IMG/VR virus record: IMGVR_UViG_3300034073_002357
Span: 1-31,982 of that record
Source: a virus
Strand: one strand, 5' to 3'
DNA length: 31,982 nt
The position numbers were made by a program, and so were the translations under genes. The notes under the pieces were generated by a model. It saw nothing but the letters and a program-made list of their open reading frames with translations. It had not been told where the DNA came from and ran no database searches. Below are positions 10,277-31,982 of this stretch, piece after piece. Each line of letters begins with the position of its first letter. Position 1 is the stretch's first letter.

Positions 10277-12069
10277 TGGCTATCTACCGAGCTGAGAGGG
10301 TAAGCAGTTATACTAACTGGAAATACCGACTCGAAATTATGCCTTATGACGAGACTCTTTCAGGGAGCATCGTCGATCTTCCGGATGGCTCGATCTTAGA
10401 GTTTGGCGATCTGGAATATGGTTTTGATGATATTCTTCCTTACGGTCTTGCGAACGCTGCGACGTGGTCAGTAAGGTTGAATTTTAGCCGTCTGCCTCCT
10501 GATTTGCAAGGTTACCTTAGGAATAAATACGTAAGCGTAACCGATATACTTTTCGGACAGCACGACCGGTACAACACTTTCATGTACTGGACTGATAGCG
10601 GTACGAACGGATCCAATTGGACGCTACTCTTTGTAGGAGTAGTAGAGAATACCGATGGTGCAGACTATGACATTAATCCTCAGCAGGAGTTAGAGGTAGA
10701 ATACAATCTGATCGATGGTGCTTACCACACGATGCTACAGATAACCGGCGACCTCTCTACTATCAGCCGTTCTGCGATCGAGCAGACCGGAGGTCTGATT
10801 TATGATTATTACGCCATTAATGGCAGATCGCAATGGCGAAATGAGTTCGGTGCAGCCGGGAATACAGATATTGCTACAGCTCATTTCAAGACATGGTCTG
10901 GGTTCATGGACGATCTGCGCACGCGGATCAGTGGCCAGACGTATGCACGAGTGGCTAGGAGCGCGAACATACTTACTGCTGCTACCAGCTTCGATTACAA
11001 CAATCGACTATACGATCTGATTGATACCGGTGTCCGGCTACAAGCCTATAACACAGATGGTAGTGGGGATGCTTTCGCGAACTTGGGGGATACGAACGCC
11101 TACATACTGCAGTACATCGTGAGTGGTGGCGAGGTAGTCGGTGGACTTTACTCTGATAAGGACGAGTACTCGGTTAGTCAGGCTCAATGCATGAAAGATA
11201 TTATCAGCGACCTATGCGAGACTTTCTGTGTGAAGATGTATTGGAAGCCGGAGTACGTCGTTGATGCTGGTGGCAATTATATCAAATGGGATTTGGAAGT
11301 ATCTACTTTATTGGGGAACAAGCGAGGCAATACGACTCCGACAGATTATTCTCTCGACAAAGTAGTCTCGATTGATGCATTCAGAGAGGGAGCCGGCATC
11401 ATCGGCAAAGCAGAGACACGAGTAACTTTAGAGGGTGACGATAAGAACGTAACAGAGTTCGTGACATCCAGTGGCCGATCACGCTCGGAGCGTAGCATCA
11501 ATATAGAGCCGATACTAAACAATCTGCCTACGCCTAAGAATTCTCTAACACAGAGGACTTTGGCAGGTATCACATATAAGCAGCGCGAATCGATAGGCGT
11601 CGATCAGACTAATTCTATTTTTAGTAATGACGGCTCGTTCGCTTGGGGAGGATTGAGCTACGGCTACGCCAAAGCACACCATGATACAAAGGTCGTAGTA
11701 CGAGGCAGTGCTAACGGTGGCGCAATAGTGACTTCATACGATGCGACCAGCAGCACGAAACCGACCAGTGCAGAGGAGCCACAGCACATAGCGTGGATGA
11801 ATGAAATACAGACGCAAGCAGGTATCCCCAAAGCACTAAGCAAAGCGTTGTTTAATACGTTTAATGATGAATTTCAATGCGAACTAGTACTGACTTGGCC
11901 GAATGCCTCTAATCTATTGATCGATCAGGTGGGGGCAGTACACGACTTAGAGGATGGACTAGCTGACGTATTGACACAATACAACTGGGACAAAGCGTGT
12001 GTCGTAGCAGTGCGACATAGTTTCTCCGATGGGACGACCGAATTAACGTATTTACTTCCGAGTGTATAA
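10276..12069 (+). CDS. Tail-tip / baseplate hub protein
   Basis: The 597-residue protein lies two genes after the tape measure protein, where siphoviruses encode the tail-associated hub (gp27/Tal-like). It is rich in aromatic residues and beta strands, with Trp-rich segments such as YWTDSGTNGSNWTLLFVG near the first fifth and repeated NG, DG and GG turns. No peptidase or lysozyme signature is visible, so it is probably structural and not a wall-degrading tip. One-base or four-base overlaps with both neighbours indicate one operon. The role is inferred from order and size. Confidence 0.55.
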   Translation: MAIYRAERVSSYTNWKYRLEIMPYDETLSGSIVDLPDGSILEFGDLEYGFDDILPYGLANAATWSVRLNFSRLPPDLQGYLRNKYVSVTDILFGQHDRYNTFMYWTDSGTNGSNWTLLFVGVVENTDGADYDINPQQELEVEYNLIDGAYHTMLQITGDLSTISRSAIEQTGGLIYDYYAINGRSQWRNEFGAAGNTDIATAHFKTWSGFMDDLRTRISGQTYARVARSANILTAATSFDYNNRLYDLIDTGVRLQAYNTDGSGDAFANLGDTNAYILQYIVSGGEVVGGLYSDKDEYSVSQAQCMKDIISDLCETFCVKMYWKPEYVVDAGGNYIKWDLEVSTLLGNKRGNTTPTDYSLDKVVSIDAFREGAGIIGKAETRVTLEGDDKNVTEFVTSSGRSRSERSINIEPILNNLPTPKNSLTQRTLAGITYKQRESIGVDQTNSIFSNDGSFAWGGLSYGYAKAHHDTKVVVRGSANGGAIVTSYDATSSTKPTSAEEPQHIAWMNEIQTQAGIPKALSKALFNTFNDEFQCELVLTWPNASNLLIDQVGAVHDLEDGLADVLTQYNWDKACVVAVRHSFSDGTTELTYLLPSV

Positions 12070-13391: not shown

Positions 13392-14258
13392 ATGCCTACA
13401 TACAAGACAACAGAGATCAAGCGTAATATTCATCACATCGATTTCGACCATGATATTAAGGACGTGCCTTTCCTGCTTATATCAGACGTTCATTTCGATT
13501 CCGTCAAATGTGATCGCGCTCTGCTGACTCAGCACTTCAAAGTAATCAGCGAACAGCAGGGATACGTTATCGTCAATGGGGATTGGTTTGACCTGATGCA
13601 GGGGAAGTACGATCCACGTGGGAGCAAGTATGACATCCGTCCCGAATACAATCGAGGCGATTATATCGATTCAGTTATTCGTGACTCTGCTGAATGGTTA
13701 GCACAATGGAAAGTCCCGGTATTTATTGGTCAGGGCAATCACGAAACCAGTATTCTGCGACGGCTCGAAACGAACCCGACTGAACGATTGGTTACGCATT
13801 TGAAGTACCTAGGAGTAGAGGCAAGCCTCGGAGGGTATAGCGGCTGGATCGTGCTACGAAGCAGACGCAAGAAGAAAGCTGGCGACGCTACTAACAACTA
13901 CGTTGTAAACTATCACCACGGACACGGAGGAAACGCAGCGCGAAGCAAAGGGATATTGAAAGCTGACATAAATCAGATGCAGTATCCAGACGCTGATCTA
14001 ATAATCCGAGGACACGACCACAACAAATGGTTACTGCCACAGACCGTGTACCGTCTGAACGCAAGCAGCACGAAAGAAAGCAAGCGCATTATTCACCACT
14101 TGCAAACCGGTAGCTACAAGGGTCAAGGCGACAGGTACGCAGGATGGGAAACGGAGAAAGGTTTTAGTACTACTACGCTCGGTGGATGGTACTTGTACTT
14201 GAATCACATCAGAGGTGCAGTCGAATACATGAAACCTAAGTTCATCGAAGCAAGCTAA
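13392..14258 (+). CDS. Calcineurin-like metallophosphoesterase
   Basis: All five blocks of the metallophosphoesterase fold are present in the 288-residue protein: D32-x-H34 (ISDVHFD), GD at 63-64 (NGDWFD), GNHE at 115-118, H176-x-H178 (HHGHGG) and GHDH at 207-210. Two metal ions should be bound, and it should hydrolyse phosphomono- or diesters. The gene is the last of the late operon, ten bases after the tail-tip gene, and its end overlaps the tail of the only minus-strand gene by 17 bases. Substrates might be DNA ends, cyclic nucleotides or nucleotides used in counter-defence. Being in the late operon, a virion-associated or end-processing role is possible. The enzyme class is secure; the substrate is not. 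Confidence 0.85.
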   Translation: MPTYKTTEIKRNIHHIDFDHDIKDVPFLLISDVHFDSVKCDRALLTQHFKVISEQQGYVIVNGDWFDLMQGKYDPRGSKYDIRPEYNRGDYIDSVIRDSAEWLAQWKVPVFIGQGNHETSILRRLETNPTERLVTHLKYLGVEASLGGYSGWIVLRSRRKKKAGDATNNYVVNYHHGHGGNAARSKGILKADINQMQYPDADLIIRGHDHNKWLLPQTVYRLNASSTKESKRIIHHLQTGSYKGQGDRYAGWETEKGFSTTTLGGWYLYLNHIRGAVEYMKPKFIEAS

Positions 14259-14472
14259 CTCTACGCTCCGACTCTGCTGCAGTCAGCAGCATACTCACAA
14301 CTTTCAATGTGTCGTCCGTGTAGCTTACCACTTCCGAGTAGGCTACACGTTCTTTGTTATCGTCCAGCAGCTCACAAAAGTAACGAGCCGGACGACTGGT
14401 AGCAGGACTCACACGACCGACACGAGCAGTGTACAACGGCCGGTCATCATCTGTTATCTGTACGGTGATCAT
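14242..14472 (-). CDS. Small acidic protein, only minus-strand gene
   Basis: A 76-residue frame on the minus strand begins MITVQITDDDRPLYTAR and continues with a balanced soluble composition, unlike the shadow frames around it. It ends inside the 3' end of the metallophosphoesterase gene (convergent, 17-base overlap) and starts at the edge of the noncoding RNA region, so it would be divergently expressed from it. No Shine-Dalgarno sequence precedes it. The sequence TATCTTTG (14484-14477) lies four bases before the ATG and matches the Bacteroidota TAnnTTTG -7 element, which would give an almost leaderless mRNA. Its function is unknown; an early regulator or anti-host protein is a guess. Confidence 0.55.
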   Translation of the reverse strand: MITVQITDDDRPLYTARVGRVSPATSRPARYFCELLDDNKERVAYSEVVSYTDDTLKVVSMLLTAAESERRVSLLR

Positions 14473-14476
14473 GCAG

Positions 14477-14484
14477 CAAAGATA
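14477..14484 (-). promoter_or_regulatory. Possible Bacteroidota-type -7 element (TAnnTTTG)
   Basis: Read on the minus strand this is TATCTTTG, an exact match to TAnnTTTG, placed four bases before the start codon of the minus-strand gene. No TTTG -33 element is seen at the usual distance, so the match may be accidental. Confidence 0.3.
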
Positions 14485-14527
14485 ACCACGGATCAGCAGG
14501 GAAGCAGCAGTACGAAAGTACTTTGTA

Positions 14528-14558
14528 GTTACCGGAAAGTTTTAGAACTTTTCGTAAC
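14528..14558 (+). ncRNA. Imperfect hairpin at the front of the noncoding region
   Basis: GTTAC and AAAGTT pair with AACTTT and GTAAC around a TTAG loop, interrupted by a small asymmetric internal loop (CGG against TC). It is followed by a second nested hairpin at 14570-14605, where CTTTCT pairs with AGAAAG and, inside it, GGTACGA pairs with TCGTATC. Both lie before or inside the first tandem RNA unit and support a structured transcript. Confidence 0.45.
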
Positions 14559-14563
14559 AACAA

Positions 14564-14772
14564 GTGAAACTTTCTGGTACGAAGCTCGTATCACCTCTTA
14601 GAAAGCAGAACGGGGAACTCTCCACAGAGGCACAAAGCTGGAATAAGCTGGCAGCCGTGAGTAACCGGTGAAACTTTCTGACAGCAGGAACGTAGGATAC
14701 AGTAGGAAGCACGACGAGAGTCCCTAAACAGAGGCACAAGGATGGAAGAAGCCGGTAGCCGTGGGACTCTCG
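14564..14772 (+). ncRNA. Two tandem 104-base structured RNA units
   Basis: Three blocks recur at exactly 104 bases: GTGAAACTTTCTG (14564 and 14668), CAGAGGCACAA (14625 and 14729) and AGCCGTG (14653 and 14757), with divergent sequence between them. In unit 2 a perfect 10-bp helix (CGAGAGTCCC at 14715 with GGGACTCTCG at 14763) encloses the second and third blocks. The same positions in unit 1 (14611-14620 with 14659-14668) form seven of ten pairs, and at three pairs both bases have changed in a compensating way. An inner GGC/GCC helix is kept in both. The RNA lies between late and early genes, just upstream of an early operon, so it may be a leader element, a decoy or a free ncRNA. I cannot match it to a known class. 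Confidence 0.6.
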
Positions 14773-14829
14773 AGTGTGACCGAAACAGGGAAACGACTTT
14801 CAACCACAACCTTATTCAGGGAGACGGCT

Positions 14830-15078
14830 ATGCAAGAGAAGCAGACTGTATATGCCAGTGAAGCAGCTATTCGCGCTGCAATCACGGTCGGCATCATGGA
14901 AGCCATGACCTATGGTAGTGGCAACTTTAATGCACAGCTGTGCGTATTTGAGGCTCGGAACTGCATCGAGCGTCGTCAATGGGAGGACGCTAAGAGGTGG
15001 GTTATGAAAGCTATCGCTTACAATGATGGCCAGCACTCCGAGCTGTATATCAAGCAGAAAGAATATTTCGGACTGTGA
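14830..15078 (+). CDS. Small early protein, first paralog
   Basis: The start is ATG 14830, preceded by the leader ATTCAGGGAGAC shared with the next three genes. The frame is open further upstream, but that stretch is the structured RNA region. The 82-residue product is helical with a conserved-looking end (QHSELYIKQKEYFG). It resembles the next gene's product in layout: an AI-AA-x(3)-MEAM helix against AIAAVLEQM, a G-N loop, a helix ending in the EA-x(4)-E pattern, a K/T-x(3)-M-K/S-AI helix and a G-x-SELY / GNSKLY ending. Function is unknown; its place at the front of the early operon suggests a host-takeover or regulatory role. Confidence 0.65.
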   Translation: MQEKQTVYASEAAIRAAITVGIMEAMTYGSGNFNAQLCVFEARNCIERRQWEDAKRWVMKAIAYNDGQHSELYIKQKEYFGL

Positions 15079-15134
15079 AACTTACGGTCACAGCGTACGT
15101 ACAACGATAAACCACATTCATTCAGGGGACACAG

Positions 15135-15413
15135 ATGGACAAGAGCATTATCACAGCAGCAGCACAAGAGGACGAGTACTATACCGACTCATTGACCTCA
15201 GCGATTGCAGCAGTATTAGAGCAGATGGTTACCCGGAACTTTGGTAAGGGTAACGATATCGTCGAGGGATTCGTAGACCATGCGGTCGAGGCCTACGAAG
15301 TAGGCAACTACAACCACTGCAGAACACTGATTATGTCGGCTATCACGCTCGTGGCTGGTGGGAACTCTAAGCTGTACCACGGAGTGGCATCGATGATCTA
15401 CCCGGAAATCTAA
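15135..15413 (+). CDS. Small early protein, second paralog
   Basis: The 92-residue product appears to be a diverged tandem duplicate of the preceding gene. Shared features are an SAIAAVLEQM helix, a GKGND loop, a VDHAVEAYEVGNYNHCRTLI helix, and the ending GGNSKLYHG. The leader (ACCACATTCATTCAGGGGACAC) also matches that of the first copy (ACCACAACCTTATTCAGGGAGAC), so the gene and its ribosome binding site were duplicated together. It is soluble, helical, with no catalytic motif. Function is unknown. Confidence 0.65.
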   Translation: MDKSIITAAAQEDEYYTDSLTSAIAAVLEQMVTRNFGKGNDIVEGFVDHAVEAYEVGNYNHCRTLIMSAITLVAGGNSKLYHGVASMIYPEI

Positions 15414-15434: not shown

Positions 15435-15459
15435 GGAGCCTCTGAATACCAGAGGCTCC
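15435..15459 (+). terminator. Perfect hairpin before the NGWTN gene
   Basis: A 10-bp perfect stem (GGAGCCTCTG / CAGAGGCTCC) has a 5-base loop and ends 17 bases before the next start, just ahead of its CAGGGAGA ribosome binding site. It has no T tract. It may be a processing or partial termination point, and shares the AGAGGCTC core with the hairpin at 15800-15824. Confidence 0.55.
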
Positions 15460-15799: not shown

Positions 15800-15824
15800 A
15801 GAGGCTCGGAAAGTCCGAGCCTCT
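15800..15824 (+). terminator. Perfect hairpin after the NGWTN gene
   Basis: An 11-bp perfect stem (AGAGGCTCGGA / TCCGAGCCTCT) with a 3-base loop (AAG) begins nine bases after the stop codon. A weak AT-rich stretch (ATACACTATAAT) follows, then the next ribosome binding site. It may act as a weak terminator or as an mRNA end stabiliser. Confidence 0.6.
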
Positions 15825-18460: not shown

Positions 18461-18708
18461 CAGCCACACGTGAAGAACTGATCATCATCATTGAAGAACT
18501 CCAAGAAGCATTGACGAATTGCCTAAGAGCGATATACGAGGCAGATCGATCTCTGGACGATGGGTACAGCTATTGTCGTTATAACAAAGGTGTCCAATTG
18601 TGTCTAAACACAGCTTACGAGAATGGCCGTCAAGTAGCTAACAAAGTGACATCGATCATGATCGCTGATAGAGCGTCGCAAGAGAAGCAGAAGGGATCAC
18701 CGGTATGA
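18457..18708 (+). CDS. Small helical protein of unknown function
   Basis: An 83-residue product with a coiled N-terminus (TREELIIIIEELQEALTNCL), two Cys residues in the middle, and a basic end. The start overlaps the preceding stop (ATGA) and the stop overlaps the next start (ATGA), so it is tightly coupled to both the annealing candidate and the DnaA-like gene. It may be a partner of one of them. No known motif. Confidence 0.55.
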   Translation: MTATREELIIIIEELQEALTNCLRAIYEADRSLDDGYSYCRYNKGVQLCLNTAYENGRQVANKVTSIMIADRASQEKQKGSPV

Positions 18709-19046
18709 TACCTAACAAGAGCAGAGCAGAGAAGCACGGAGTATTGGAAGCAGTAGCTAGGAAACTTTCAATTGACGTGCAGGATATCACTGATAAGAAC
18801 CGGGAAGCATGGAGGGTGATTATTCGATACGCTATCGCTAGAGCTTTGCGTGAAGACAATCATTGGCCGTGGCCTGAAGTAGGTTCGACTATTGGCAAAG
18901 AGCGTACTACGACGTATTATGCTGTGGATATAGCAGCACGGATGCGACAGTATGGCAGCGTCGAACAGAAAGCCATCATCGAGCGAGTGACCGAAGCAGT
19001 GAACGAATACCTCAACTCTTTATCAACTAACCATAGGAATGGATGA
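18705..19046 (+). CDS. DnaA domain IV-like DNA-binding protein
   Basis: The 113-residue product reads like the C-terminal DNA-binding domain of DnaA without the ATPase part. RVIIRYAIARALREDNHWPW (residues 42-61) matches the helix that begins ARQ-x-AMYL-x-R in DnaA. PEVGSTIGKERTTTYYAVDI (62-81) matches the signature helix-turn-helix (L-x-x-IG-x-x-FG-x-DHTTV-x-x-A). A Lys-rich N-terminus (HGVLEAVARKLSIDVQDIT) also resembles the start of domain IV. It may bind DnaA boxes, two of which lie at 15424 and 22216, and recruit or compete with host DnaA. It is a conserved strategy in some phages but the partner is unknown. Confidence 0.75.
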   Translation: MIPNKSRAEKHGVLEAVARKLSIDVQDITDKNREAWRVIIRYAIARALREDNHWPWPEVGSTIGKERTTTYYAVDIAARMRQYGSVEQKAIIERVTEAVNEYLNSLSTNHRNG

Positions 19047-31090: not shown

Positions 31091-31982
31091 ATGGGGAACA
31101 TAATGAGCGATAAAATCCAAGTCACTGCTGACGGCCTTGCGATAACCAATGATGCAGGCAAGAAAGTAATCATCCGTACAAACCATTCTGCCACTTCAGA
31201 TCAGTACATCGATCTCCCGAGCAGTGGAGGTACGATCAGTACAGCAGAGAGCGCGACGGATACAGACGAGAAAACTAAGATTTCAAGTAACGATACCAGA
31301 GCCGATTATCTTGAAAACAAACTTGTAGCTGGATCGAATATCACCTTGACGACGAACAACGATGGTGGTAATGAAACGATCACGATCGCAAGTGCAGGTG
31401 GTGTCGATACAGATGAGAAAAGCAAAGTGTCTGCTAATGATACCACTGCAGGGTATTTGAACGGAAAGCTCGTAGCCGGCTCTGGCATTAGCTTTACAGA
31501 GAACAACAATGGTAGCGACGAAACACTAACCATCGCCAGCACGGTAACCGATCAACTTGTAAAGGCACGATCGAGCGACACGACAGCAAACTATCTTGCT
31601 TCGAAGTTGGCAGAGGGTACCGGCATTTCGTTTAACATTCTAAACAGTGGCGGTAACGAACTTATCAGCATTGCCAGCACAGTAACGAATACCGATCAAC
31701 TTGCAAAGGTTAGCAGCAACGATACAACAGCCGGGTATTTGAATGGCAAGCTAGTTGCCGGCTCCGGCATTACTCTTACTGAGGGCAGCGACGGCGGAAA
31801 CGAAACGCTAACCATTGCAGCAAGTGGGGGCGGTGGTGGTGCCGGTGGATTTACTTTTTATGATGTGACGCTAAGAGATTGCGAGAATACTTCTAGCTCT
31901 GTCAAAATCATCGAAACTACAATCCCAGCTAACACGTGGGAGGACGGGCAAGCCCTAACGCTTGACATTGCGTATGATATAT
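31091..31982 (+). CDS. Tail fibre, 5' part with tandem repeats (continues at window start)
   Basis: This is the start of the tail-fibre gene (ATG 31091, or 31103 giving MSDKIQVTADGLAI), open to the window end and continuing to 510 on the circle, total about 424 residues. After an N-terminal anchor it has four tandem repeats of about 47 residues (D-x-K-S-N-D-T-x-x-x-YL-x-x-K-LV-AG-x-x-I), then a Gly-rich hinge (SGGGGGAGGF) and the C-terminal tip domain. Such repeats build a trimeric beta-structured shaft in phage fibres. The gene is placed after the capsid genes and is likely to determine host range. Confidence 0.75.
   Translation, partial: MGNIMSDKIQVTADGLAITNDAGKKVIIRTNHSATSDQYIDLPSSGGTISTAESATDTDEKTKISSNDTRADYLENKLVAGSNITLTTNNDGGNETITIASAGGVDTDEKSKVSANDTTAGYLNGKLVAGSGISFTENNNGSDETLTIASTVTDQLVKARSSDTTANYLASKLAEGTGISFNILNSGGNELISIASTVTNTDQLAKVSSNDTTAGYLNGKLVAGSGITLTEGSDGGNETLTIAASGGGGGAGGFTFYDVTLRDCENTSSSVKIIETTIPANTWEDGQALTLDIAYDI
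31256..31825 (+). repeat. Four tandem shaft repeats within the tail-fibre gene
   Basis: About 570 bases encode four units of roughly 46-49 residues, each with NDT/SDT, a YL-x-x-KL segment, a G-x-x-I turn and a G-NE/DE-x-I/L-x-IAS end. Units 2 and 4 are closest (both contain AGYLNGKLVAGSGI). Confidence 0.8.
31856..31982 (+). repeat. 127-base exact repeat of the window start (circular assembly overlap)
   Basis: All 127 bases equal bases 1-127. A tail-fibre frame is open through the join, and 127 is a common assembler k-mer length, so this is most simply an overlap from a circular contig. Unique genome length is then 31855 bases. A real terminal redundancy of this exact length would be a coincidence. 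Confidence 0.85.

Follow-up and report, generated by a model that had tools for sequence, protein, structure and literature searches.

A probable early-operon control region in a tailed-phage genome: tandem units joining a candidate ECF-type promoter to a predicted leader hairpin

Promoters read by ECF sigma factors in general carry AAC at -35 and CGT at -10 (PMC4153023), and the published consensus for SigW of Bacillus subtilis is TGAAAC-N16,17-CGTA (PMC2375139). A two-box arrangement is also found in the late promoters of phage 7-11, which have the form GTAAtg-(16)-aCTA and are read by a phage sigma factor (PMC8948821). On the RNA side, the put RNAs of phage HK022 are about 70 nt long, form two stem-loops and lie downstream of early promoters (PMC9378689). 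The locus described here has features reminiscent of each of these systems. It contains a tandem duplication, a promoter motif enriched far above chance and a consensus fold that is specific to one strand. Taken together, these features are reasonably well explained by an early-operon control region built from a duplicated promoter-leader cassette, in which an ECF-type promoter is followed by a leader hairpin. This reading is favored with somewhat better than even confidence.

The window, meaning the whole stretch of DNA that was analysed, is a single virus record of 31,982 bases (IMGVR_UViG_3300034073_002357). Its first and last 127 bases (1-127 and 31856-31982) are identical, which makes it probable that the record is a complete tailed-phage genome, circularly assembled and about 31.86 kb long. 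Nearly all genes in the ORF map are carried by the plus strand in one array. The features of the junction between late and early genes are as follows.

13392-14258: last late gene, encoding a calcineurin-like phosphoesterase (Pfam PF00149)
14242-14472, minus strand: putative ORF from the ORF map
14473-14829, plus strand: whole leader region, between the putative minus-strand ORF and early gene 1 (ORF map)
14519-14544, minus strand: Pm, a degenerate promoter-like site (TAAAACTTTCCGG..AGTA) from a pattern scan, facing ORF 14242-14472
14564-14667, plus strand: unit 1 (repeat comparison)
14565-14590, plus strand: P1, candidate ECF-sigma-type promoter TGAAAC-N16-CGTA (-35 at 14565-14570, -10 at 14587-14590)
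14611-14668, plus strand: predicted leader hairpin of unit 1, from the consensus fold (outer helix 14611-14620/14659-14668)
14668-14772, plus strand: unit 2 (repeat comparison)
14669-14694, plus strand: P2, candidate ECF-sigma-type promoter TGAAAC-N16-CGTA (-10 at 14691-14694)
14715-14772, plus strand: predicted leader hairpin of unit 2 (outer helix 14715-14724/14763-14772; fold z -4.12 over 14700-14777)
14830-15078, plus strand: early gene 1, 82 aa, function unassigned, with a CAGGGAG ribosome-binding site upstream
15076-15101, plus strand: P3, a further TGAAAC-N16-CGTA (the third), which overlaps the end of gene 1 and lies ahead of early gene 2
15135-15413, plus strand: early gene 2, 92 aa, with weak similarity to gene 1

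A reading made from the sequence alone had placed the repeats in the only long noncoding gap of the genome, between late and early genes. The location at the late/early junction holds, but the gap may be shortened by the small minus-strand ORF at 14242-14472. By eye, this ORF looks like one at the equivalent place in a related genome (L004); since tblastn gave no confirmation of the likeness, it is treated as an unproven gene. A 12-bp hairpin with 92% complementarity lies at 14317-14349, after the last late gene, and is followed by TTCTTTGTT; the two may be a terminator for the late genes that falls within the putative minus-strand ORF. The leader itself has no long plus-strand frame filling the gap, and the 104-base period of the repeat shifts the reading frame. 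A coding explanation for the units was rejected, since 104 is not divisible by three and the frames of the conserved blocks differ.

At an offset of 104 bases, counted from 14556, 71 of 104 bases are identical in register, and the units are contiguous. Among short-range repeats in the window, compared over 104-base windows, this one ranks second, the best being the repeats at 31433 within a large ORF. Identity between the units is uneven, with fully identical blocks (13/13 bases at 14564-14576/14668-14680 and 12/12 at 14624-14635/14728-14739) beside stretches near half identity; a third block spans 14639-14659/14743-14763. The two tandem copies, exact 104-base spacing, three blocks and diverged intervals proposed from the sequence alone are thus all confirmed. 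Beyond the region considered in that proposal, a third copy of the first block and its downstream CGTA is found at 15075-15101, and the GTGAAACTT...CGTA family consequently has three members, starting at 14564, 14668 and 15075.

Every GTGAAACTT of this family starts a TGAAAC-N16-CGTA motif. Three such sites occur in the 32-kb window against 0.03 expected by chance, and all three lie on the plus strand, inside a 540-bp stretch where the early operon begins, upstream of early genes 1 and 2 and in the same orientation as these genes. The AAC-containing -35 box (TGAAAC) and the CGTA -10 box of ECF-type promoters are matched exactly at 3/3 sites. The spacer is 16 bases in each case, within the 16-17 bases expected of such promoters, and when spacings of 8 to 24 were scanned, 16 alone gave more than one site. 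Across the three sites the boxes and their spacing are kept while the spacer sequence has diverged. Among 185 other loci (1.6 Mb), no pair of TGAAAC-N16-CGTA sites was found within 600 bp, and no sigma70-like promoter above chance was found in the leader of the window. Two points bear on the weight of these counts. P1 and P2 belong to the two copies of a single duplicated unit and so are not independent, leaving P3 as the sole independent repeat of the motif; and the motif was recognised only after the repeats had been seen. P3 has no RNA core downstream, as covariance model R1, built from the two units, matches these two units only, and the promoter block and hairpin core are accordingly separable modules. 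Pm and P1 form an inverted repeat (14530-14542/14567-14579), which is explained if they are divergent sites placed back to back. We infer that TGAAAC-N16-CGTA serves as a promoter for an alternative sigma factor of the host; the early proteins scanned included no recognisable sigma factor, which would make a host ECF sigma factor the likeliest reader.

The early genes may themselves share a history with these sites. The protein of early gene 1 gave zero matches in Pfam and PHROG searches, and it is weakly similar to that of early gene 2; 1 of 2000 shuffles gave as high an alignment score. Perhaps the two represent a gene duplicated along with its promoter. Further along, two perfect hairpins of 10-11 bp without U-tracts, GGAGCCUCUG/CAGAGGCUCC at 15435-15459 and AGAGGCUCGGA/UCCGAGCCUCU at 15800-15824, precede the third and fourth early genes, immediately before their ribosome-binding sites, and have the sequence AGAGGCUC in common.

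The nearest relatives of the window genome are IMGVR 3300034072_000396 (L004) and 3300035670_001518 (L005). They have the same gene order as the window, with protein identities of 50-80% for most shared genes. At the same genome position, both have a clear sigma70-like promoter, TTGACA-N17-TATATT. It is present twice, nearly unchanged, and each copy precedes an early gene. Hence duplication of the early promoter occurs elsewhere in the group, while the class of promoter differs in the window genome. The relatives also differ from it in lacking a 104-base unit at that place and in having different first early genes. In L004, the early promoters at 11207 and 11465 share an overlapping TTGTGCAA...TTGCACA that is repressor-site-like in appearance, and in the relatives a small protein that by eye resembles a ribbon-helix-helix regulator is encoded after the second promoter copy.

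The second half of each unit was next considered as RNA. The outer helix has 10/10 pairs in unit 2 and 7/10 in unit 1, where three pairs fail, and the two units differ by three two-sided changes within it, just as the sequence-only reading had described; a short inner stem adds a fourth. Inside the hairpins, a purine-rich internal loop, ACAGAGGCACAA, is invariant between 14624-14635 of unit 1 and 14728-14739 of unit 2, and the unit 1 hairpin includes a conserved AGCCGTG at 14653-14659. Random substitution with the same number of changes kept at least 7 pairs in 6% of trials, and at least 7 pairs plus at least 3 double changes in 4.5%. Shuffling of the 3' arm gave at least 7 pairs in 0.8%, and column shuffling within identity classes produced a helix of at least 8 pairs and three double changes 3 times in 5000. 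The probability of the covariation therefore lies between 0.0006 and 0.06 depending on the null, for two sequences with four two-sided changes and three broken outer pairs. The consensus fold of the units has a z of -2.95 on the plus strand, the transcribed strand of the early genes, where 2 of 500 column shuffles were as good; on the minus strand, z is -0.54 and 148 of 500 were as good. Taken alone, the unit 2 core folds well (z -4.12, as listed above), and unit 1 is no better than shuffles (z -0.33, and z -0.49 for its core). A leader hairpin is plausible since the consensus fold holds on the plus strand and not on the minus strand, and the data are suggestive of a structured plus-strand RNA in the second half of each of these two sequences. 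The RNA signal cannot be decisive, as the covariation rests on two sequences. The original reading is thus supported in part: a structured plus-strand RNA is plausible for the second half of each unit, but the first conserved block is mainly a promoter-type DNA motif.

Homologues of the element were sought widely. Three pattern scans of IMG/VR DNA for the core returned chance matches only, mostly in open reading frames, as did a scan of bacterial genomes with one genome per species. Two pattern matches (L010 and L012) were rejected as homologues for lying within capsid-like coding sequence, and 92 of 109 tandem pattern matches fell in a frame open through the whole stretch. A BLAST search of the leader against phage and plasmid records gave only a 33-base match at E 0.08. 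Model R1 recovered the two units themselves and nothing else from 164 sources (the window with 83 related loci, and 80 pattern loci), and had zero matches on 17 whole records; homologues with compensating changes, which a covariance model of both copies was expected to find in related phages, did not appear. The reach of R1, a model of two sequences, ends at near relatives, and this absence is therefore weak evidence. For now, the element appears to be an orphan.

Other explanations of the locus can be weighed against these results. Aptamers typically show conserved unpaired loops together with variable helices, a type that the units fit. They could on these grounds be tandem riboswitch-like cis aptamers within one long early leader that starts upstream of 14528, with GTGAAACTTTCTG as part of the RNA; CUUUCUG within this sequence pairs with UAGRAAG over 7 pairs in both units, and a strong hairpin (14524-14562, z -3.43) lies upstream. 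Nevertheless, the third copy of the GTGAAACTT..CGTA block without the remainder of the unit suits a promoter and not part of an aptamer, no sigma70 promoter is recognisable further upstream, and the downstream genes include no metabolic gene. Rfam 15 covariance models gave no match in the window at gathering thresholds and, at a permissive E of 10, only two chance microRNA models with E about 9, in agreement with the earlier statement that the RNA belongs to no recognised class. Aptamers are therefore an unlikely explanation. The tandem riboswitch or decoy RNA first suggested is not the best reading, as the strongest block is a promoter-type motif that also precedes the next gene without the RNA core.

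An array of protein-binding DNA sites, either operators or origin iterons, is about equally improbable. Here the conserved boxes would contact a phage regulator, and the period of exactly 104 bp, about ten helical turns, would place them on one face of the DNA. An inverted pair of AACTTTC(C/T)GGTA at 14530/14568 is consistent with such sites, and the protein encoded at 18705-19046 weakly matches domain IV of DnaA, the C-terminal part that binds DNA (PF08299; E 2.6e-6, a match that falls short of the curated cut-off). Against this, palindromy is absent from the long conserved blocks (14624-14659/14728-14763), DNA sites would not be expected to give the strand bias seen in the consensus fold, and two boxes 16 bases apart are more simply taken as a promoter. 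Processive antitermination of the HK022 put kind, in which the stem-loops would bind the transcribing polymerase and cause read-through of the long plus-strand operon, would suit the early-leader position downstream of early promoters, as in HK022 (PMC9378689), and the single array of plus-strand genes, but is very doubtful given that no sequence likeness has been demonstrated, Rfam gave none and no intrinsic terminator is predicted in 14000-15400.

Under the favored cassette reading, a unit probably combines a promoter with the start of its transcript, because the motif recurs without the RNA core and the relatives have duplicated sigma70-like promoters at this place. Each unit would consist of a SigW-like ECF promoter, TGAAAC-N16-CGTA, then a start, then a transcribed stem-loop segment. 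Transcript starts are predicted about 6-9 bases past CGTA, near 14596-14600 for P1 and 14700-14704 for P2. Each transcript would then run for about 10-15 bases before entering its outer helix (14611-14668 or 14715-14772), producing a 5' stem-loop with the ACAGAGGCACAA internal loop. P3, a promoter alone, would serve early gene 2 from a predicted start near 15107-15111, while Pm, inverted and degraded, may drive the ORF on the opposite strand (14242-14472). The hairpin would act in cis on the early mRNA, at its 5' end, instead of as a free RNA. This would be its most economical role, whether by shielding the early mRNA from decay or by aiding elongation by polymerase. A bolder proposal is that the hairpins constitute a new class of phage leader RNA, copied with the promoter and acting on elongating polymerase or the early mRNA, with a host stress-type (ECF) sigma factor driving the early genes in place of the main sigma factor; this is regarded as a long shot. 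If the cassette reading itself is right, an early programme starting from ECF-type promoters would make infection dependent on a host alternative sigma factor, often one of envelope stress. Promoter class would then have been exchanged between members of one phage group, since close relatives have ordinary sigma70-like promoters at the same spot, and the leader hairpin, present in two copies, would represent a small RNA acting in cis and lying outside known families.

Compared with known systems, the window is closest to SigW-type ECF promoters, as both boxes and the 16-base spacer are exact at three sites (PMC2375139, PMC4153023); it differs in that its sites are candidates within a phage early region with no recognised phage sigma factor. 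The late promoters of phage 7-11 likewise have two boxes and a 16-base spacer repeated before several phage genes, but they differ in sequence, precede late genes and depend on a phage-encoded sigma factor. The put RNAs of HK022 resemble the units as structured RNAs in an early phage leader with two related copies per genome (PMC9378689), whereas the put copies follow two different promoters, PL and PR, and share no demonstrated match with the units in sequence or structure.
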